NCBI GenBank assembly: GCA_945903545.1
Contig: CAMDOO010000027.1
Location: forward strand, 1-38,635
Source: Opitutus sp. GAS368
GTDB lineage: Bacteria; Verrucomicrobiota; Verrucomicrobiia; Opitutales; Opitutaceae
Reading direction: 5' to 3'
Length of the DNA: 38,635 bases
Shown here piece after piece: positions 32,235-37,957 of the stretch; the stretch's first letter is position 1, and each line of letters starts with the position of its first letter. The translations under genes were made by a program, and so were the position numbers. Under the pieces are notes generated by a model. It worked only from the letters and a program-made list of their open reading frames with translations. It did no database searches and was not told the DNA's origin.

Positions 32235-33665
32235 TCAATTCGTGTAGGGTACCGTGCCGGTCGCGTCGACGGTGTAGCCCCATTTCTTGATGTAGGCGGC
32301 CGCGGGCAGGAACTCGTCGCCGGCCTCCTTGAGTTTCCGCGCCAGGATTGCCTCCAGATCCGCCTGCAGTCTGGCCGTGCCAAATTGATTCGCCAAGTTG
32401 ATCAGTTGATAGGGATCGGTCTGGTTGTCGAAGAGCAGCCAGGGACCGTGCAGGTCGCGGACGTAGGTGTAACGCTCCGTGCGAATCCCGCGAAACTCCC
32501 GCCCGCCCCGTGAAAACGACCACTGGCCGAACGGCGCCGGACTGGCGAGCAACGTGGCCCCGTCCGAGGGGTTTGCCCCGCCCCGGAGGTAGCCGCTGAA
32601 ATCGAGCCCTTCCGCCGTCTTCGGCACCGCCACCCGGGACAGGCCGAGCAGCGTCGGCATGAGGTCCTCGGAATTGACAACGGTTTCGACCGTGCGCCCG
32701 GCCGAGCCGAGGCCGGCGGGCCAGCGCACCAGCAGGGGCACCCGGATCGATTCATCGTAGGGCTGCTGCTTGTTGTCGCCCCCGTGGGATCCCAGCAGAT
32801 CGCCATGGTCCGCGGTAAAAACCACGATCGTGTTTTCCGCCAAGCCCGATTCGCGCAGGGTCTGCATCAGCTCACCCATGCAGTCATCCAGCGCCGTGCA
32901 GTGGGCATAGTAACCGGCGAGGGACCGGCGGGTCTGGGCGCCGGCCATCGCCGGCACATTCGGCCGCAGGGTGAACTTGGCAGGGTCGTACATCGCCCGG
33001 TATTTCTCGGGAGCGGTATTGTAGGGGTCATGGGGCGGACCCCATGACAGGAACAGCACGAATGGTTTTCCCGTCGCCGCGTGGTCCCGCAGATACTGCT
33101 GCGCGTCCTTGGTCTGGGCGATCGCGTCATAGCCCTCCCACTTCAGCTTCTCCGGACCGTCCGCAAAATAGAACGAGTTGTTGTAGGCATGGGAGCACTC
33201 CAGGACCTTCCAATAATCGAAACCTTGCCGCCGCTCGCGCGGAATGAAATTGGAGCGGCCGTTGGCGTTGAGGTGCCACTTGCCGATGTACCCCGTGTCG
33301 TAACCTTCCTTCCCCAGTGTCTTGGCAATCGTGACCGCGTTCGGATCCAACGGCACGTCGTTCATGAACACCCCGTGGGTCAACGGCCGCTGCCCGGTCT
33401 GGATCGAGGCGCGCGCCGGCCCGCAGACCGGGACACCGGAAATGGCACGGGTGAAATGGATGCTCTCGCGTTGCAGCGCATCCAGGTGGGGCGTCTGCAC
33501 ATTCTGGTCGCCCGCAAATCCAAACGCCTGGGCCCGCCACTGGTCAGCAAAGACGAACAAGATGTTGGGTTTTTGCGACGGGGCCGGGGCCGCGGCGTCT
33601 GCCGCCCGCACCGCGGACGAGATGGCCAGCAATCCGACCAGCGCCATCAGGGTCATGCGTTTCAT
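32235..33665 (-). CDS. Secreted sulfatase (S1 family), paralogue
   Basis: A 476-residue protein. Signal peptide MKRMTLMALVGLLAISSAVRA. It has the canonical formylglycine site VPVCGPARASIQTGQRP (C81), metal-binding FVFADQWR, GKWHLN and FTADHGDLLGSHGGDNKQQPYDESIRVPLLV. ATG 33665 gives a clean signal peptide; the ORF's 18 extra residues upstream do not. Forty-nine bases separate it from the downstream sulfatase, so the pair is likely co-transcribed. A maturase (FGE or AtsB type) is not in the window. Confidence 0.93.
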   Translation of the reverse strand: MKRMTLMALVGLLAISSAVRAADAAAPAPSQKPNILFVFADQWRAQAFGFAGDQNVQTPHLDALQRESIHFTRAISGVPVCGPARASIQTGQRPLTHGVFMNDVPLDPNAVTIAKTLGKEGYDTGYIGKWHLNANGRSNFIPRERRQGFDYWKVLECSHAYNNSFYFADGPEKLKWEGYDAIAQTKDAQQYLRDHAATGKPFVLFLSWGPPHDPYNTAPEKYRAMYDPAKFTLRPNVPAMAGAQTRRSLAGYYAHCTALDDCMGELMQTLRESGLAENTIVVFTADHGDLLGSHGGDNKQQPYDESIRVPLLVRWPAGLGSAGRTVETVVNSEDLMPTLLGLSRVAVPKTAEGLDFSGYLRGGANPSDGATLLASPAPFGQWSFSRGGREFRGIRTERYTYVRDLHGPWLLFDNQTDPYQLINLANQFGTARLQADLEAILARKLKEAGDEFLPAAAYIKKWGYTVDATGTVPYTN

Positions 33666-33796
33666 GGGGTAATGCGGAGAGGCACCTGTAGTCCACCAGG
33701 CTCCCTCGCACAAAAGCATTATCTCCCGCCCGCGGGTGGAAAGGCAAAAATCCGTCCCACGCCCATCGGCGTCCCCCTCTCTCCTTCGCCCCTACG

Positions 33797-34510
33797 TCAG
33801 CTCCCGCTCCGGCCGGGCGGCGCGTCGTACCGGTACCCCACCCCGTGCACGGTCGCGATCGGGCCCTCGGCGTCGGCTCCGATCTTCCGCCGCAACTGCG
33901 CCACGTGCTGGTCAAGGGTGCGGGTCGTGCCGAGATAGTTCACGCCCCAGACGGCGTTGAGCAGGGCGTCGCGGCTCAGGACCTTGCCGGGATGTGACGC
34001 AAAGACCTCGGCGAGTTTCAGCTCCCGGGCAGTCAGGGACTCCACGGCCGATCCCACCTTGGCCGTGAAGCGGTCGCGGCTGATCTCCGCCGCCCCGAAG
34101 GTGAACACGGCCGGCAGCTCATTCTCCGGGGCCACCGCCGCGGTCTTGCCGCGCCGCAGCAGTGCCTCGACCCGCGCCAGGAGTTCCTGCACGCCGAAGG
34201 GCTTGGTCACGTAGTCGTCGCCCCCGAGCTTCAGGCCCACGACCTTGTCGATCTCCTCGCCCTTCGCGGTGAGGAACAGGACGGGAACGCGCGCGCCGCC
34301 GGCCCGCAGGTCGCGGCAGACGTCGTACCCGCTGGCCTTCGGCATCATCACATCGAGCACCACGAGGTCGAATTTCTGCTGGGGAAAAAGCTTCAGGGCC
34401 TGCGCGCCGTCCGCGGCGGCGGTCACGTCGTAACCCTCGCTCTCGAGCGTCGCGGTGAGCCCGAGCCGGATGTCGCGGTCGTCTTCGGCGATCAGGATGC
34501 GCGCCTTCAT
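33797..34510 (-). CDS. OmpR/PhoB-family response regulator
   Basis: A 237-residue protein: receiver domain 1-~120 with phosphoacceptor D53 in LVVLDVMMPKASGYDV, T81 and K103 (VTKPFG), then a winged-helix OmpR-type effector domain (~140-232: LTARELKLAEVFASHPGKVLSRDALLNAVWG, TRTLDQHVAQLRRKIGADAEGPIATVHGVGYRY). The start codon overlaps the stop of the histidine-kinase gene (ATGA), so the two are translated together. It is a candidate binder of the 11-bp direct repeats at 37918-37957. Confidence 0.94.
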   Translation of the reverse strand: MKARILIAEDDRDIRLGLTATLESEGYDVTAAADGAQALKLFPQQKFDLVVLDVMMPKASGYDVCRDLRAGGARVPVLFLTAKGEEIDKVVGLKLGGDDYVTKPFGVQELLARVEALLRRGKTAAVAPENELPAVFTFGAAEISRDRFTAKVGSAVESLTARELKLAEVFASHPGKVLSRDALLNAVWGVNYLGTTRTLDQHVAQLRRKIGADAEGPIATVHGVGYRYDAPPGRSGS

Positions 34511-36327
34511 GGGAGTTCGAGGATGAAGACCGCGCCGCCTCCGGAGCGTGGCTCGCAGCGCAGTTCGCCGCCGAGGCCGCGCGCCAGCTGCCGGGCGATG
34601 CTCAGGCCGAGGCCGGCGCCGCCGCGGTCCGCCGTCAGCGTCTCGTCCACGCGGTGAAACTTCTCGAAGATCTTGTTCCGGTGCTCGGCCGGCACGCCCG
34701 GTCCGCGATCGGCGATCCGCACGCTCACGCCGCCGCCCGGCCGCGGTGACAGGGTCACGAGCACCTCACCGCCGCCCCCCGCGTACTTCGCGGCGTTGTC
34801 GAGCAGGTTGAGGACGATCTGCTCGACCGCGTCCCGGTCGGTCGACACCGGCGGGCCATGCGGCAGGTCCCAACGAAGGATCATCCCGGACTCGCCGAGG
34901 CGCGGCATCTGGGTCCCAAGCAGGCGCTCCAGTTCCACCGCGAGGTCGACCTTTTCCGACGCATACTTTTTCCGCCCCTGCTCCAGCCGGCTGAAATCGA
35001 GGACATTGTTCACCAGCCGCGCCAGCCGCTGGGTTTCCCGCCCGATGGTCCGCAGGTAGTCCCGCCCCTGCTCGGGATCGCGCACCCGGCCCTGCTCCAG
35101 CAGTTCCGAGTACAGCCGGATGTTGGTCAGCGGCGTCTTGAATTCGTGCGAGACGTTGGCGACGAACGAGGTCTTCAGCGCCGCCTCCTCCCCGCTGCGC
35201 CGCGCCTGCAGGAGCAGCAGCGAGCCCGCGCCGAGGATCGCCAGGACGGCGACGATCACCAGGCCCATGCCCAGCGTCGCAAACCCGCCGCCCGCGCCGT
35301 CCGGGTAGGCCGGTGCCAGGAACGCCACCGCTTCCCAGCCGGATAATAGCGCATTGCCCAGCGGGATCCGCGCCACGGGTTCCGTCCCGCCCTGCAACGC
35401 TCCGACCTGATGATGAATCCGGCCCTGGGCATCCCGCAGTGCGAAGCCCTCGCCCGGATTCACCTCGGCCGGCAAGGCTCCCTTCAGTTGCTGGATGAAC
35501 GTGTCGGGATTCAACTCCAGGCCGCGGACATCCGAGCCGTTTCCGGGCCGCATCCAGCCGAGAAGGTGCAGCCGGCCGTCCAAATTCACCGCCTGCCAGC
35601 CCCGCGCCCCGGCGTCAGTTCCGGTCGCCTCTTTTTTCGCGGCCACCGCCGCCACTGCCGCCGCCTTCGCCGGCGCTGCGAGTCCGGCATCGGCCTCGGC
35701 CCGCGAACGCTCCGCCGCCGCCGGAGCGGGAGCCGAAGCCGTCTGATAAACCTGCCGCGCGAGTTCGTTCGCATCCCGCCGGGCGGTCTGGGCCACGCCG
35801 GCGTTGCTGGCCGACTGAAGTTGGACCTTGGAGACGGCCTCGTCGGCACCCGCCAGTGCGTCCTTCAATTCGCGCGTGGCCTTGGAGAAAACGGCGGCAT
35901 CGGTCCACGGCACGCCATTCGAAAAATAGGTGGGGAATCTCCGGGCAAAACCGCGCTGGTTTTCGTCCGGCGCCGCCGCCGTGGGCCGGAGCAGCCGTCC
36001 GTCGGCGGTCGCGCGAAACCCCACGCGGACGAGCGGATTGTTTGTTTCCCAAGTCGCCAGGAAGGCGTCGATCGCGCTCGCCGGCTCCGCGGCCAAGGTG
36101 TCGAGCAGCCCGGTCTGGATGTCGCCGGCCAGCAGCTCGGCATTCTCCACAATCAATCCGGCCCGGGCCGTTGCCGCCGTCCGGCGTGCCGTCTCCGCCA
36201 TCGCGCCGCGCTCGTTCAACGCCGCCTGTTCCCGCCTCAGGAGCAGGACCGCGCCGGCCCCGACAGCGAGGGTCGGCAGGAGCAGCAGCATCCAATAGAG
36301 GACGATGCGGCGGGAGTTGGGGATCAT
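34507..36327 (-). CDS. Membrane sensor histidine kinase
   Basis: A 606-residue kinase. TM1 ~10-30, a ~310-residue periplasmic sensor, TM2 ~350-373, then HisKA with H394 in FVANVSHEFKTPLTNIRLYSELLEQ, N box NLLDNAAKYAGGGG (~507), D box RIADRGPGVP (~537) and G2 GGAGLGLSIARQL (~569). The periplasmic part has an Ala-rich stretch (APAAAERSRAEADAGLAAPAKAAAVAAVAAKKEA, ~201-234). The start is ATG 36327 (MIPNSRR); the upstream ORF extension is untranslated spacer. Cognate partner of the regulator at 33797. Confidence 0.93.
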   Translation of the reverse strand: MIPNSRRIVLYWMLLLLPTLAVGAGAVLLLRREQAALNERGAMAETARRTAATARAGLIVENAELLAGDIQTGLLDTLAAEPASAIDAFLATWETNNPLVRVGFRATADGRLLRPTAAAPDENQRGFARRFPTYFSNGVPWTDAAVFSKATRELKDALAGADEAVSKVQLQSASNAGVAQTARRDANELARQVYQTASAPAPAAAERSRAEADAGLAAPAKAAAVAAVAAKKEATGTDAGARGWQAVNLDGRLHLLGWMRPGNGSDVRGLELNPDTFIQQLKGALPAEVNPGEGFALRDAQGRIHHQVGALQGGTEPVARIPLGNALLSGWEAVAFLAPAYPDGAGGGFATLGMGLVIVAVLAILGAGSLLLLQARRSGEEAALKTSFVANVSHEFKTPLTNIRLYSELLEQGRVRDPEQGRDYLRTIGRETQRLARLVNNVLDFSRLEQGRKKYASEKVDLAVELERLLGTQMPRLGESGMILRWDLPHGPPVSTDRDAVEQIVLNLLDNAAKYAGGGGEVLVTLSPRPGGGVSVRIADRGPGVPAEHRNKIFEKFHRVDETLTADRGGAGLGLSIARQLARGLGGELRCEPRSGGGAVFILELP

Positions 36328-36505
36328 GGGAATAAGGCGTTCGGCAAGGGCGCCGCCCCAGAATAGGGCGGCGCCTTGGCGTTTCACAAGTCGGCAGCGG
36401 AGCGGATTTCCGGATGGTGGACCGGTAGGGCGTGACGGTTGCGGCGCGCCGAGCACACGGACCGACCCGGCGGGCCGCCCCTTCCCGTCCTACCACAGCA
36501 CGACC

Positions 36506-37867
36506 TCAGCGGCTGTTCTGCTGGTTCATGATCTGCGAGTTCTCGGTCCGGTAGGCCTTGCGAGAGGCATTATCCAGGCCCTCGCGCTCCAGCCGGTCCG
36601 CCTCGGGGGCCGCCGCGGCCGCCACCTGACGCACCATGGGATTGCTGTAGGTGTCCGCGGTCCGGGCGAGTTCCTTCGCCCGTTCGCGCACCACCGCCGC
36701 CGCTTCGTCCTTCCTGCCGGCGTCCACCAGTTCCACCGCGGCGAGCTTGGCCACGGCCAGGGCGTTCGTCGCATAGTCCGCCTGCACCTTGTGGTCAGCC
36801 GAAGCCACGACTTCCGCCTCGTCGCGGCTGAATTGCACCTTGCGCTCGGCGCTGGCCGACACCGTTGCCTGGGTGAAGGCGTCCTCGTAGCTCACGCGAG
36901 CCCGCGCGATCTCGCGCTCGGCCCCGGCGGACCCGGCGTCCACCTCGACCTCGATCAGCGCGAACTTCTCCTGCCCGCCGTAAAGCTGATTGAGCGACAG
37001 CTCCGCGCGGTTGCCGCGGATCGTGCCCTCGCGGCCCACGAAGGCGATCGGACGCACCCCGGCGGGAAAGTCGATCTCCACGGTCACGCGGCGCGCGACC
37101 ACGTTCAGCACGTCGCCGAGCTCCGCCGCGAAGATCCGCGGCAGGTCGCGCTCATGCTCCACGAAGTAGGTGTTGCCGTCGCTCGCCTGCGCCAGCCGGC
37201 TCATCAGGTCCTCGTTGAAGCCGAGGCCGAGCCCGACCGTCGTGACCGAGATGCCCTCGCTGACCAGCGAGGCACCGAGCCGCCCCAGCTCGGCGGGCGA
37301 GGCCGGGCCGACGTTGGCCTGGCCGTCAGAGAGCAGGAGGACGCGGTTGACCGTCCCGCGCTCGCCGAAGTGGCGCCGAACCTCGGACGCGCCCAACGCG
37401 ACCCCGTGATAAAGGGCGGTGCCGCCGTTGGCCGAAATCTCGCGGATGGCCTCCTCTAGCCGGCGCCCGTTGCCCACGCGCTGGGCGGGCACGAGCACCT
37501 CGGCGCGGTTGTCGTAGGCGACAAGCGCCACGATGTCGTCGGACGACAGGCGCCGGACGAGCTCCAGCGCCGCCTCACGAGCCTGCTCGATCTTCCCGCC
37601 GCTCATCGAGCCCGAGCGGTCGATCACCACCGCGAGGTTCACCGGCGCGCGCTTGCGGTCCGAAGTGCGCGCGATGGCGTCGAGGCCGATCTTGATGACC
37701 GCCCGTTCCGTGCGTCCGGCGCGAAGCACGCCGCGGTCGAGATCGACGCGCAGGCGGACGGTTTCACTGCCGGCGGGACTCCGCTCGGAGGCACAGGCAG
37801 TGTTGACGAGCGACATCGCACCCAAGAGGAGAGCGGCCGCGAAAGCTGACAGGATGATGTTTTTCAT
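36506..37867 (-). CDS. von Willebrand factor A domain protein (exported)
   Basis: A 453-residue protein. Start ATG 37867 with SD AAGGA (7-base spacing). N-terminal hydrophobic segment (IILSAFAAALLLGAMSLV) exports it. VWA domain from ~75 to ~260 carries the MIDAS site D83-R-S-G-S in VVIDRSGSMSGGK, with TALYHGV and LLLSDGQANVG completing it. A beta-rich domain follows, ending in a charged helical tail (NASRKAYRTENSQIMNQQNSR). It is similar in layout to bacterial YfbK/Mg-dependent VWA proteins; the ligand is unknown. It lies upstream of the kinase (178-base gap) on the same strand. Confidence 0.88.
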   Translation of the reverse strand: MKNIILSAFAAALLLGAMSLVNTACASERSPAGSETVRLRVDLDRGVLRAGRTERAVIKIGLDAIARTSDRKRAPVNLAVVIDRSGSMSGGKIEQAREAALELVRRLSSDDIVALVAYDNRAEVLVPAQRVGNGRRLEEAIREISANGGTALYHGVALGASEVRRHFGERGTVNRVLLLSDGQANVGPASPAELGRLGASLVSEGISVTTVGLGLGFNEDLMSRLAQASDGNTYFVEHERDLPRIFAAELGDVLNVVARRVTVEIDFPAGVRPIAFVGREGTIRGNRAELSLNQLYGGQEKFALIEVEVDAGSAGAEREIARARVSYEDAFTQATVSASAERKVQFSRDEAEVVASADHKVQADYATNALAVAKLAAVELVDAGRKDEAAAVVRERAKELARTADTYSNPMVRQVAAAAAPEADRLEREGLDNASRKAYRTENSQIMNQQNSR

Positions 37868-37917
37868 AGTGGGGTCCTTGTTGGACTTCCCCATGAAACC
37901 AGAAATCGGCCCGGCGG

Positions 37918-37957
37918 TTGTCAGTGCGCGGTCAGCCGATTGTCAGGAGATTGTCAG
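37918..37957 (-). promoter_or_regulatory. Four tandem 11-bp direct repeats upstream of the VWA gene (Pho-box-like)
   Basis: On the minus strand the heptamers CTGACAA, CTGACAA, CTGACCG and CTGACAA (plus coordinates 37951-37957, 37940-37946, 37929-37935, 37918-37924) each repeat after exactly 11 bases. The layout and core resemble PhoB/OmpR sites (CTGTCAT with 4-base spacers), so an OmpR-family regulator dimer pair could occupy them. They end 51 bases before the VWA ATG. The OmpR-type regulator two genes downstream is the prime candidate. Confidence 0.7.

Follow-up and report, generated by a model that had tools for sequence, protein, structure and literature searches.

Genes at the locus

The window (the whole stretch of 38,635 nucleotides that was analysed, which is also the whole contig) carries a group of genes on its minus strand, in which a VWA-domain protein is followed by a two-component system and a sulfatase:

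36506-37867, minus strand: VWA-domain protein of 453 aa with an N-terminal signal-like helix (Pfam VWA, 4.8e-18; orthologues; predicted fold)
34507-36327, minus strand: sensor histidine kinase of 606 aa (Pfam HisKA and HATPase_c), with a 4-bp overlap with the regulator gene
33797-34510, minus strand: OmpR/PhoB-type response regulator of 237 aa, the proposed binder of the repeat array (Pfam Response_reg and Trans_reg_C; RTLDQH recognition helix; co-occurrence with the array)
32235-33719, minus strand: sulfatase, 77 bp past the regulator gene

The regulator matches both Response_reg (108.7 bits) and Trans_reg_C (80.7 bits) above their respective cut-offs, which places it in the OmpR/PhoB family, and its closest relatives in the PDB are the mycobacterial regulators RegX3, MtrA, and PhoP. 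The program-made open reading frame of the VWA gene opens at an ATG at position 37894, and, given that this codon overlaps a predicted -10 element (37898-37893), the start of the gene was taken as 37867, which is preceded by AAGGA.

The VWA protein has an invariant DxSxS motif, and its predicted structure (mean pLDDT of 84.6) comprises the VWA domain, a beta-sandwich, and C-terminal helices. In the PDB, this model is most similar to the archaeal ArnAB complex (TM-score of 0.66 by the query and 0.77 by the target), which its own PDB entry describes as a Sec23/24 core orthologue, and the exported VWA protein is predicted, on the basis of the model, to have the build of a Sec23/24 core, similar to that of ArnB.

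A possible second control element was considered in the 178 nt between the VWA and kinase genes, where there is a strong hairpin at 36343-36380 (GGCGCCGCCC / GGGCGGCGCC), and the gap as a whole folds no better than its composition predicts (z of -1.68, with 10 of 200 shuffles being equally good). The sulfatase was considered as a part of the conserved unit and rejected, as no match to it was found in the 173 relatives' loci examined, where 48 of the 67 loci with a regulator match extend at least 1,500 nt past the regulator; given this absence, it may have been added to the operon locally. At the other end of the window, an open reading frame cut by the contig end (38092-38634) combines the C-terminal part of a 3-methyladenine DNA glycosylase with a TfoX_C domain, and the run of G that closes the contig (38620-38635) looks like a sequencing artefact.

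The repeat array

Four short direct repeats lie upstream of the VWA gene, with 50 bp between the last of them and the start codon at 37867:

37951-37957, minus strand: unit 1, CTGACAA (CTGACAATCTC), supported by the sequence and by column conservation in 50 operon sites and 28 other sites
37940-37946, minus strand: unit 2, CTGACAA (CTGACAATCGG), the strictest unit among the relatives
37929-37935, minus strand: unit 3, CTGACCG (CTGACCGCGCA), degenerate, with the relatives keeping a TKAC core (alignment columns 24-27)
37918-37924, minus strand: unit 4, CTGACAA (CTGACAACCGC), the promoter-proximal unit

The sequence-only reading had described four phased CTGACAA-type repeats with an exact pitch of 11 bp, which holds for the positions and for the pitch, as the units start at 37957, 37946, 37935, and 37924; three of the copies are identical, and the third unit differs from them at two bases. 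Short repeats that are approximately one helical turn apart and upstream of their target are the form of site expected of the OmpR/PhoB family, and the array has this form.

In the window, three copies of CTGACAA at the 11-bp pitch, with up to three mismatches, give two overlapping matches, and none were found in 100 dinucleotide shuffles. At the scale of the 3.08-Mb assembly, the four-unit pattern (up to three mismatches) matches this array only, in two registers, and the reversed four-unit pattern has no match in the whole assembly at the same tolerance.

Conservation upstream of VWA homologues

Homologues of the VWA gene were taken from 37 loci in public genome contigs and from 141 genomes (79 with a match, of which the best 30 loci were taken), and the records of the VWA relatives carry the names Opitutaceae, Opitutia, or Verrucomicrobiota. 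The resulting set of 63 leaves out the loci below 200 bits (L041-L043), one locus with no start (L030), and the duplicates of the window (L001, L003, and L004), and includes the window itself, together with several loci present in both collections. The array was found upstream of 54 of these 63 homologues, at 19-22 of the 22 scored positions, while shuffled upstream DNA had a mean score of 12.1 and a maximum of 18.

An absence of the repeats upstream of the orthologous VWA genes had been named beforehand as a result that would speak against the regulatory role of the site, and the opposite was observed, not only in these 54 loci, but also in all 35 of the 141 genomes with an orthologue above 250 bits, a cut-off that was chosen after the results had been seen. 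In the loci that reach far enough, the order is array, VWA gene, kinase, and regulator, all in one direction, with a kinase match downstream of the VWA gene in most loci of sufficient reach and one locus (L147) without a kinase match.

The nine loci without the array are of different kinds. Six are alphaproteobacterial and score 11-13, with no match to the kinase or the regulator in the DNA examined, which ends inside the VWA gene in L040 and reaches less than 3 kb past it in L035 and L036. The other three are distant loci. Two of them, L031 (a Planctomycetota contig, with a score of 18, which equals the maximum of the shuffles and is no better) and L034 (an Omnitrophota contig, with a score of 15), carry variant CTGACA-CTTACA-CTTA repeats, with a hexamer of TACACT or TAGACT 20 nt past the last unit, found by a script in L034 and by eye in L031, where this unit is CTCACC; the variant precedes a VWA-kinase-regulator series in L031 and a VWA-kinase pair in L034. 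The last of the nine, L032 (a Verrucomicrobia contig, with a score of 13), has the VWA gene, the kinase, and a regulator with the RTLDQH helix, yet the array is absent from the approximately 220 nt upstream that the contig contains.

Promoter geometry

The sites available for alignment were reduced from 54 operon sites and 29 other sites to 50 and 28, respectively, by the removal of sequences at least 80% alike, and four of the 28 other sites (two of them in L111, the others in L118 and L121) precede operons of kinase and regulator in which no VWA gene was matched. When the 50 operon sites are aligned on the array alone, units 1, 2, and 4 are strict and unit 3 reads nTKAC, with weaker conservation beyond the array, and exact copies of CTGACAA are present in units 1-4 in 20, 42, 1, and 23 of the 50 sites, respectively.

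A -10 element is also visible in the alignment, its TG occupying columns 57-58 and its hexamer columns 60-65, and the 28 other sites are alike in this. In the window, it corresponds to the following feature:

37893-37901, minus strand: predicted extended -10, TGG-TTTCAT, 20 nt past the CTGACA of unit 4

An extended -10 at exactly 20 nt past unit 4, scored as G58, T60, A or T61, and T65, was found in 40 of the 50 operon sites and in 15 of the 28 other sites, and the same signature is present in 0-4 sites at each of 24 other offsets, and in a mean of 0.39 (operon) and 0.23 (other) sites in the shuffles. The units, their pitch, and their distance to the -10 are thus kept, while most of the flanking columns are not.

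This geometry bears on the sign of the control, on which co-occurrence and conservation are silent, and the adjacent regulator might bind the array mainly to repress the operon, or to switch it, keeping it off until a signal arrives. This alternative is unlikely, given that the array stops a constant distance short of the -10 and leaves both the -10 and the start site uncovered, with the spacing being just as strict before unrelated genes. In addition, the promoter has an extended -10, and the window has ACAACC, rather than a -35 box, at the usual spacing of 17 nt. Taken together, these features are what activators usually show.

Co-occurrence of the array and the regulator

Across the 141 genomes, the four-unit pattern identified 65 sites, and the reversed pattern only one (in G081), while in the wider sets the reversed matches numbered two in 252 genomes of the family (G081 and G510) and three in 387 genomes of the phylum, all of the latter in a single genome (G351). 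The exact pattern is present in 19 of the 387 genomes, 18 of which belong to the order. The remaining genome (G393, L225) was rejected as a member outside the order, as its hit is a string of CTGAC repeats that no -10 was seen to follow. This string is what might be expected if the array itself were a chance product or a minisatellite with no function. That explanation, which we consider extremely improbable, is contradicted by the excess over the reversed control and by the fact that the four units keep their pitch and their spacing to the -10 amid flanks that mostly vary.

Among the 141 genomes (array with up to one mismatch; regulator at E of up to 1e-60, a cut-off set together with the search), 37 have both the array and the regulator, four the array only, four the regulator only, and 96 neither. 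In the 252 genomes of the family (regulator at E of up to 1e-80, also set together with the search), the respective numbers are 72, 7, 2, and 171, and in the 162 of these genomes that lie beyond the first set, nine of which are also part of the earlier phylum-wide scan, they are 44, 6, 2, and 110; the Fisher tests of these co-occurrences ignore the kinship among the genomes. The recognition-helix core [TS]R[TS]LDQH is conserved among the regulators of the loci that bear the array.

The discordant genomes of the first set include three with the array only (G106, G124, and G133), which have an adjoining kinase and a regulator that is 43-45% identical, and a fourth (G112) with no regulator match at 1e-45, while all four regulator-only genomes (G010, G022, G031, and G064) have paralogous VWA-kinase-regulator loci. 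In the family set, four array-only genomes (G089, G591, G595, and G603) have a regulator that is 55-58% identical on the same contig as the site, and another (G630) has a fragment of the regulator on this contig, with no regulator match at 1e-45 in G558 and G616, the latter 68% complete. Two regulator-only genomes (G548 and G634) have a close regulator and no site even at three mismatches. In the window's own genus, the array, the regulator, and the VWA match are all absent from G001 (92% complete) and G002 (75% complete).

The array goes with the regulator, and not solely with the VWA gene, as two genomes illustrate. G042 has two sites ahead of an operon of kinase and regulator in which no VWA gene was matched. 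G116 has one site immediately before a kinase-regulator pair, likewise with no VWA match, and a second one, on another contig, before a VWA_4 gene.

The sites in G112, G558, and G616, which have no matched regulator orthologue, would be accounted for if an unlinked DNA-binding protein read the array and merely co-occurred with the operon. On the other hand, the array adjoins the kinase-regulator pair across genera and order-level families, this adjacency persists where the VWA gene is missing or elsewhere, as in G042 and G116, and distinct paralogous regulators own a version of the same promoter grammar, all of which makes such a protein very unlikely.

The array may also be read as a Pho box bound by PhoB, which would place the VWA operon in the phosphate starvation regulon, given that the family architecture is shared and the heptamer is similar to that of the Escherichia coli Pho box (CTGTCAT). 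The best NCBIfam match of the kinase is PnpS, at 185.5 of the 400 bits required, which is below the cut-off, and there is one two-unit GTGACA pair near pst in G026. The sequence-only reading had contrasted the array with the classical Pho box, and this contrast is borne out by the regulator, which reaches 181.7 of the 296.2 bits required for PhoB (TIGR02154); five other regulators of the window's genome score higher for PhoB, the best with 257 bits, and none passes.

Given that the array occurs once in the genome of the window, it is not at the pst genes of that genome, and no CTGACA array was found when 30 pstC loci and 15 regions upstream of pst, whose promoters were not located, were searched for pairs of units. 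These searches gave scattered pairs only (such as TTGTCAC in L179 and GTGACA in L216), which makes the pst comparison a weak one and left the Pho box of the family undefined. The target genes in the relatives are not phosphate genes. With a sub-threshold regulator, a single array, and better PhoB candidates in the same genome, the Pho-box reading was rejected as highly improbable.

Other genes behind array sites

In the relatives, the array also precedes MuiA/DUF4139, VWA_4, alpha-2-macroglobulin, and SIMPL genes. A Pfam scan of 20 proteins, one per site, from 20 of the 29 other sites found DUF4139 in five (four of them also with DUF4140), VWA_4 in three, and SIMPL, alpha-2-macroglobulin/MG2, a histidine kinase, a bile-acid symporter, WD40, and rhodanese in one each, while one had a Tll0287-like match below the cut-off and five had no family. 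The DUF4139 protein of L110 passes the MuiA model (486.9 bits against a cut-off of 112.6), whereas that of L117 fails (26.7), and the SIMPL protein remains below the cut-off of the oxidative-stress defence model (98.7 of 249 bits). In L123, the scanned frame overlaps the site, and the next gene is 64-66% identical to the genes behind the sites of L129 and L130, the latter of which has MG2/A2M domains.

Two of the five proteins without a family, together with four others, form one family of proteins of more than 1,000 aa, from six genomes and three genera, with no Pfam or NCBIfam match in the two members checked:

L104, 3754-6999, and L107, 2-3151: the two members that were among the five scanned proteins
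L105, L106, L108, and L109: further members of the same family

The genes of this family lie directly after an array site and adjoin a large VWA protein, and several of the proteins behind the other sites begin with sequences that, by eye, are signal-like.

All eight of the paralogous loci L133-L139 and L173 have TKAC units at the 11-bp pitch with T[AT]nnnT 20 nt further on (by a script, and without a chance control), and an additional unit 10 or 11 bp upstream is often present. These loci are mostly accompanied by a second VWA gene, with the promoter either before the operon or before the following gene, and four of their regulators have AKLR, rather than AQLR or AQVR, in the recognition helix.

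Proposed mechanism and regulon

The array is very probably the activator site of the promoter of the VWA-kinase-regulator operon, bound by the operon's own regulator, and our confidence is tempered by G548 and G634, with their close regulator and no site. That the adjacent OmpR-type regulator and its kinase control the VWA gene through the repeats had already been suggested from the sequence, and both the conservation and the genome-to-genome co-occurrence lend support to such control at the sequence level.

Each 11-bp unit (a 7-bp motif and a 4-bp spacer) would receive one DNA-binding domain, so that the four units may seat two tandem dimers, the form in which this family binds direct repeats. 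The last dimer would be set against the -35 region, as unit 4 starts at approximately -38 when -12 to -7 is assigned to the -10 hexamer. The phosphorylated regulator would then recruit RNA polymerase to the extended -10 promoter, and the levels of the VWA protein, kinase, and regulator would rise together, presumably from one transcript, although the 178-nt gap with its hairpin lies between the VWA gene and the kinase. Given that the array is best read as the promoter of a whole operon that encodes the regulator itself, the circuit would be autoregulatory.

As the array precedes a small set of mostly exported proteins in the relatives, the system resembles a response to extracytoplasmic or envelope stress. 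A broader proposal, which we put forward tentatively and hold with a little less than even confidence, is that the regulators with the RTLDQH helix define an undescribed envelope-surveillance regulon of the Opitutales, with sister forms elsewhere. In this regulon, one grammar (11-bp TKAC-core repeats, a 20-nt spacer, and an extended -10) would control the exported ArnB-like VWA protein, which may feed back on the kinase, together with MuiA/DUF4139, SIMPL, alpha-2-macroglobulin, and the large, family-less exported protein.

These results supply a two-component system of the Verrucomicrobiota with a predicted binding site, a grammar for its promoters, and a regulon of modest size, and a single purified protein and a DNA of 100 bp would suffice to test the prediction. 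The co-regulation also offers a starting point for genes whose role is unknown, such as those of the VWA protein, MuiA/DUF4139, and the large exported protein.

Comparison with known systems

Systems of this kind are well known. The literature searched showed neither the motif, nor the grammar of four units and 20 nt, nor the regulon, all of which appear new relative to it. Among the matches listed, there was no paper on this operon or motif, and none that mapped an OmpR-type regulon in the Verrucomicrobiota.

The core region of PhoP in Bacillus subtilis consists of TTAACA-like short direct repeats at approximately helical pitch upstream of the -10, as in the present array, and differs from it in motif, position, and regulon. 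The Pho box has, like the array, a strict spacing to the core promoter, differs from the array in its central base (CTGTCAT versus CTGACAA), and lies approximately one turn closer to the -10. The Pho box of E. coli PhoB also shares with the array the direct repeats and a regulator of the OmpR/PhoB family (PMC10294691), while the regulator described here does not reach the PhoB cut-off and no such array emerged from the pst scans.

The dedicated sortase system of the Proteobacteria also has a VWA protein beside an OmpR-type regulator, with weak matches at the level of the domains, although the regulator reaches 141.2 of the 335.7 bits of its model (TIGR03787) and the VWA protein 53.5 of 551.65 (TIGR03788), both far short of the cut-offs.

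The PhoP site of Mycobacterium tuberculosis is a further parallel, as this regulator of the OmpR/PhoB family requires direct repeats of 7-bp motifs with 4-bp spacers, binds as tandem dimers, and has a higher affinity for four consecutive motifs than for two (PMC4832192). The motif of PhoP is TCACAGC, in contrast with the CTGACAA found here, and its regulon is another; in the present array, four units are the natural rule, with the third being degenerate.
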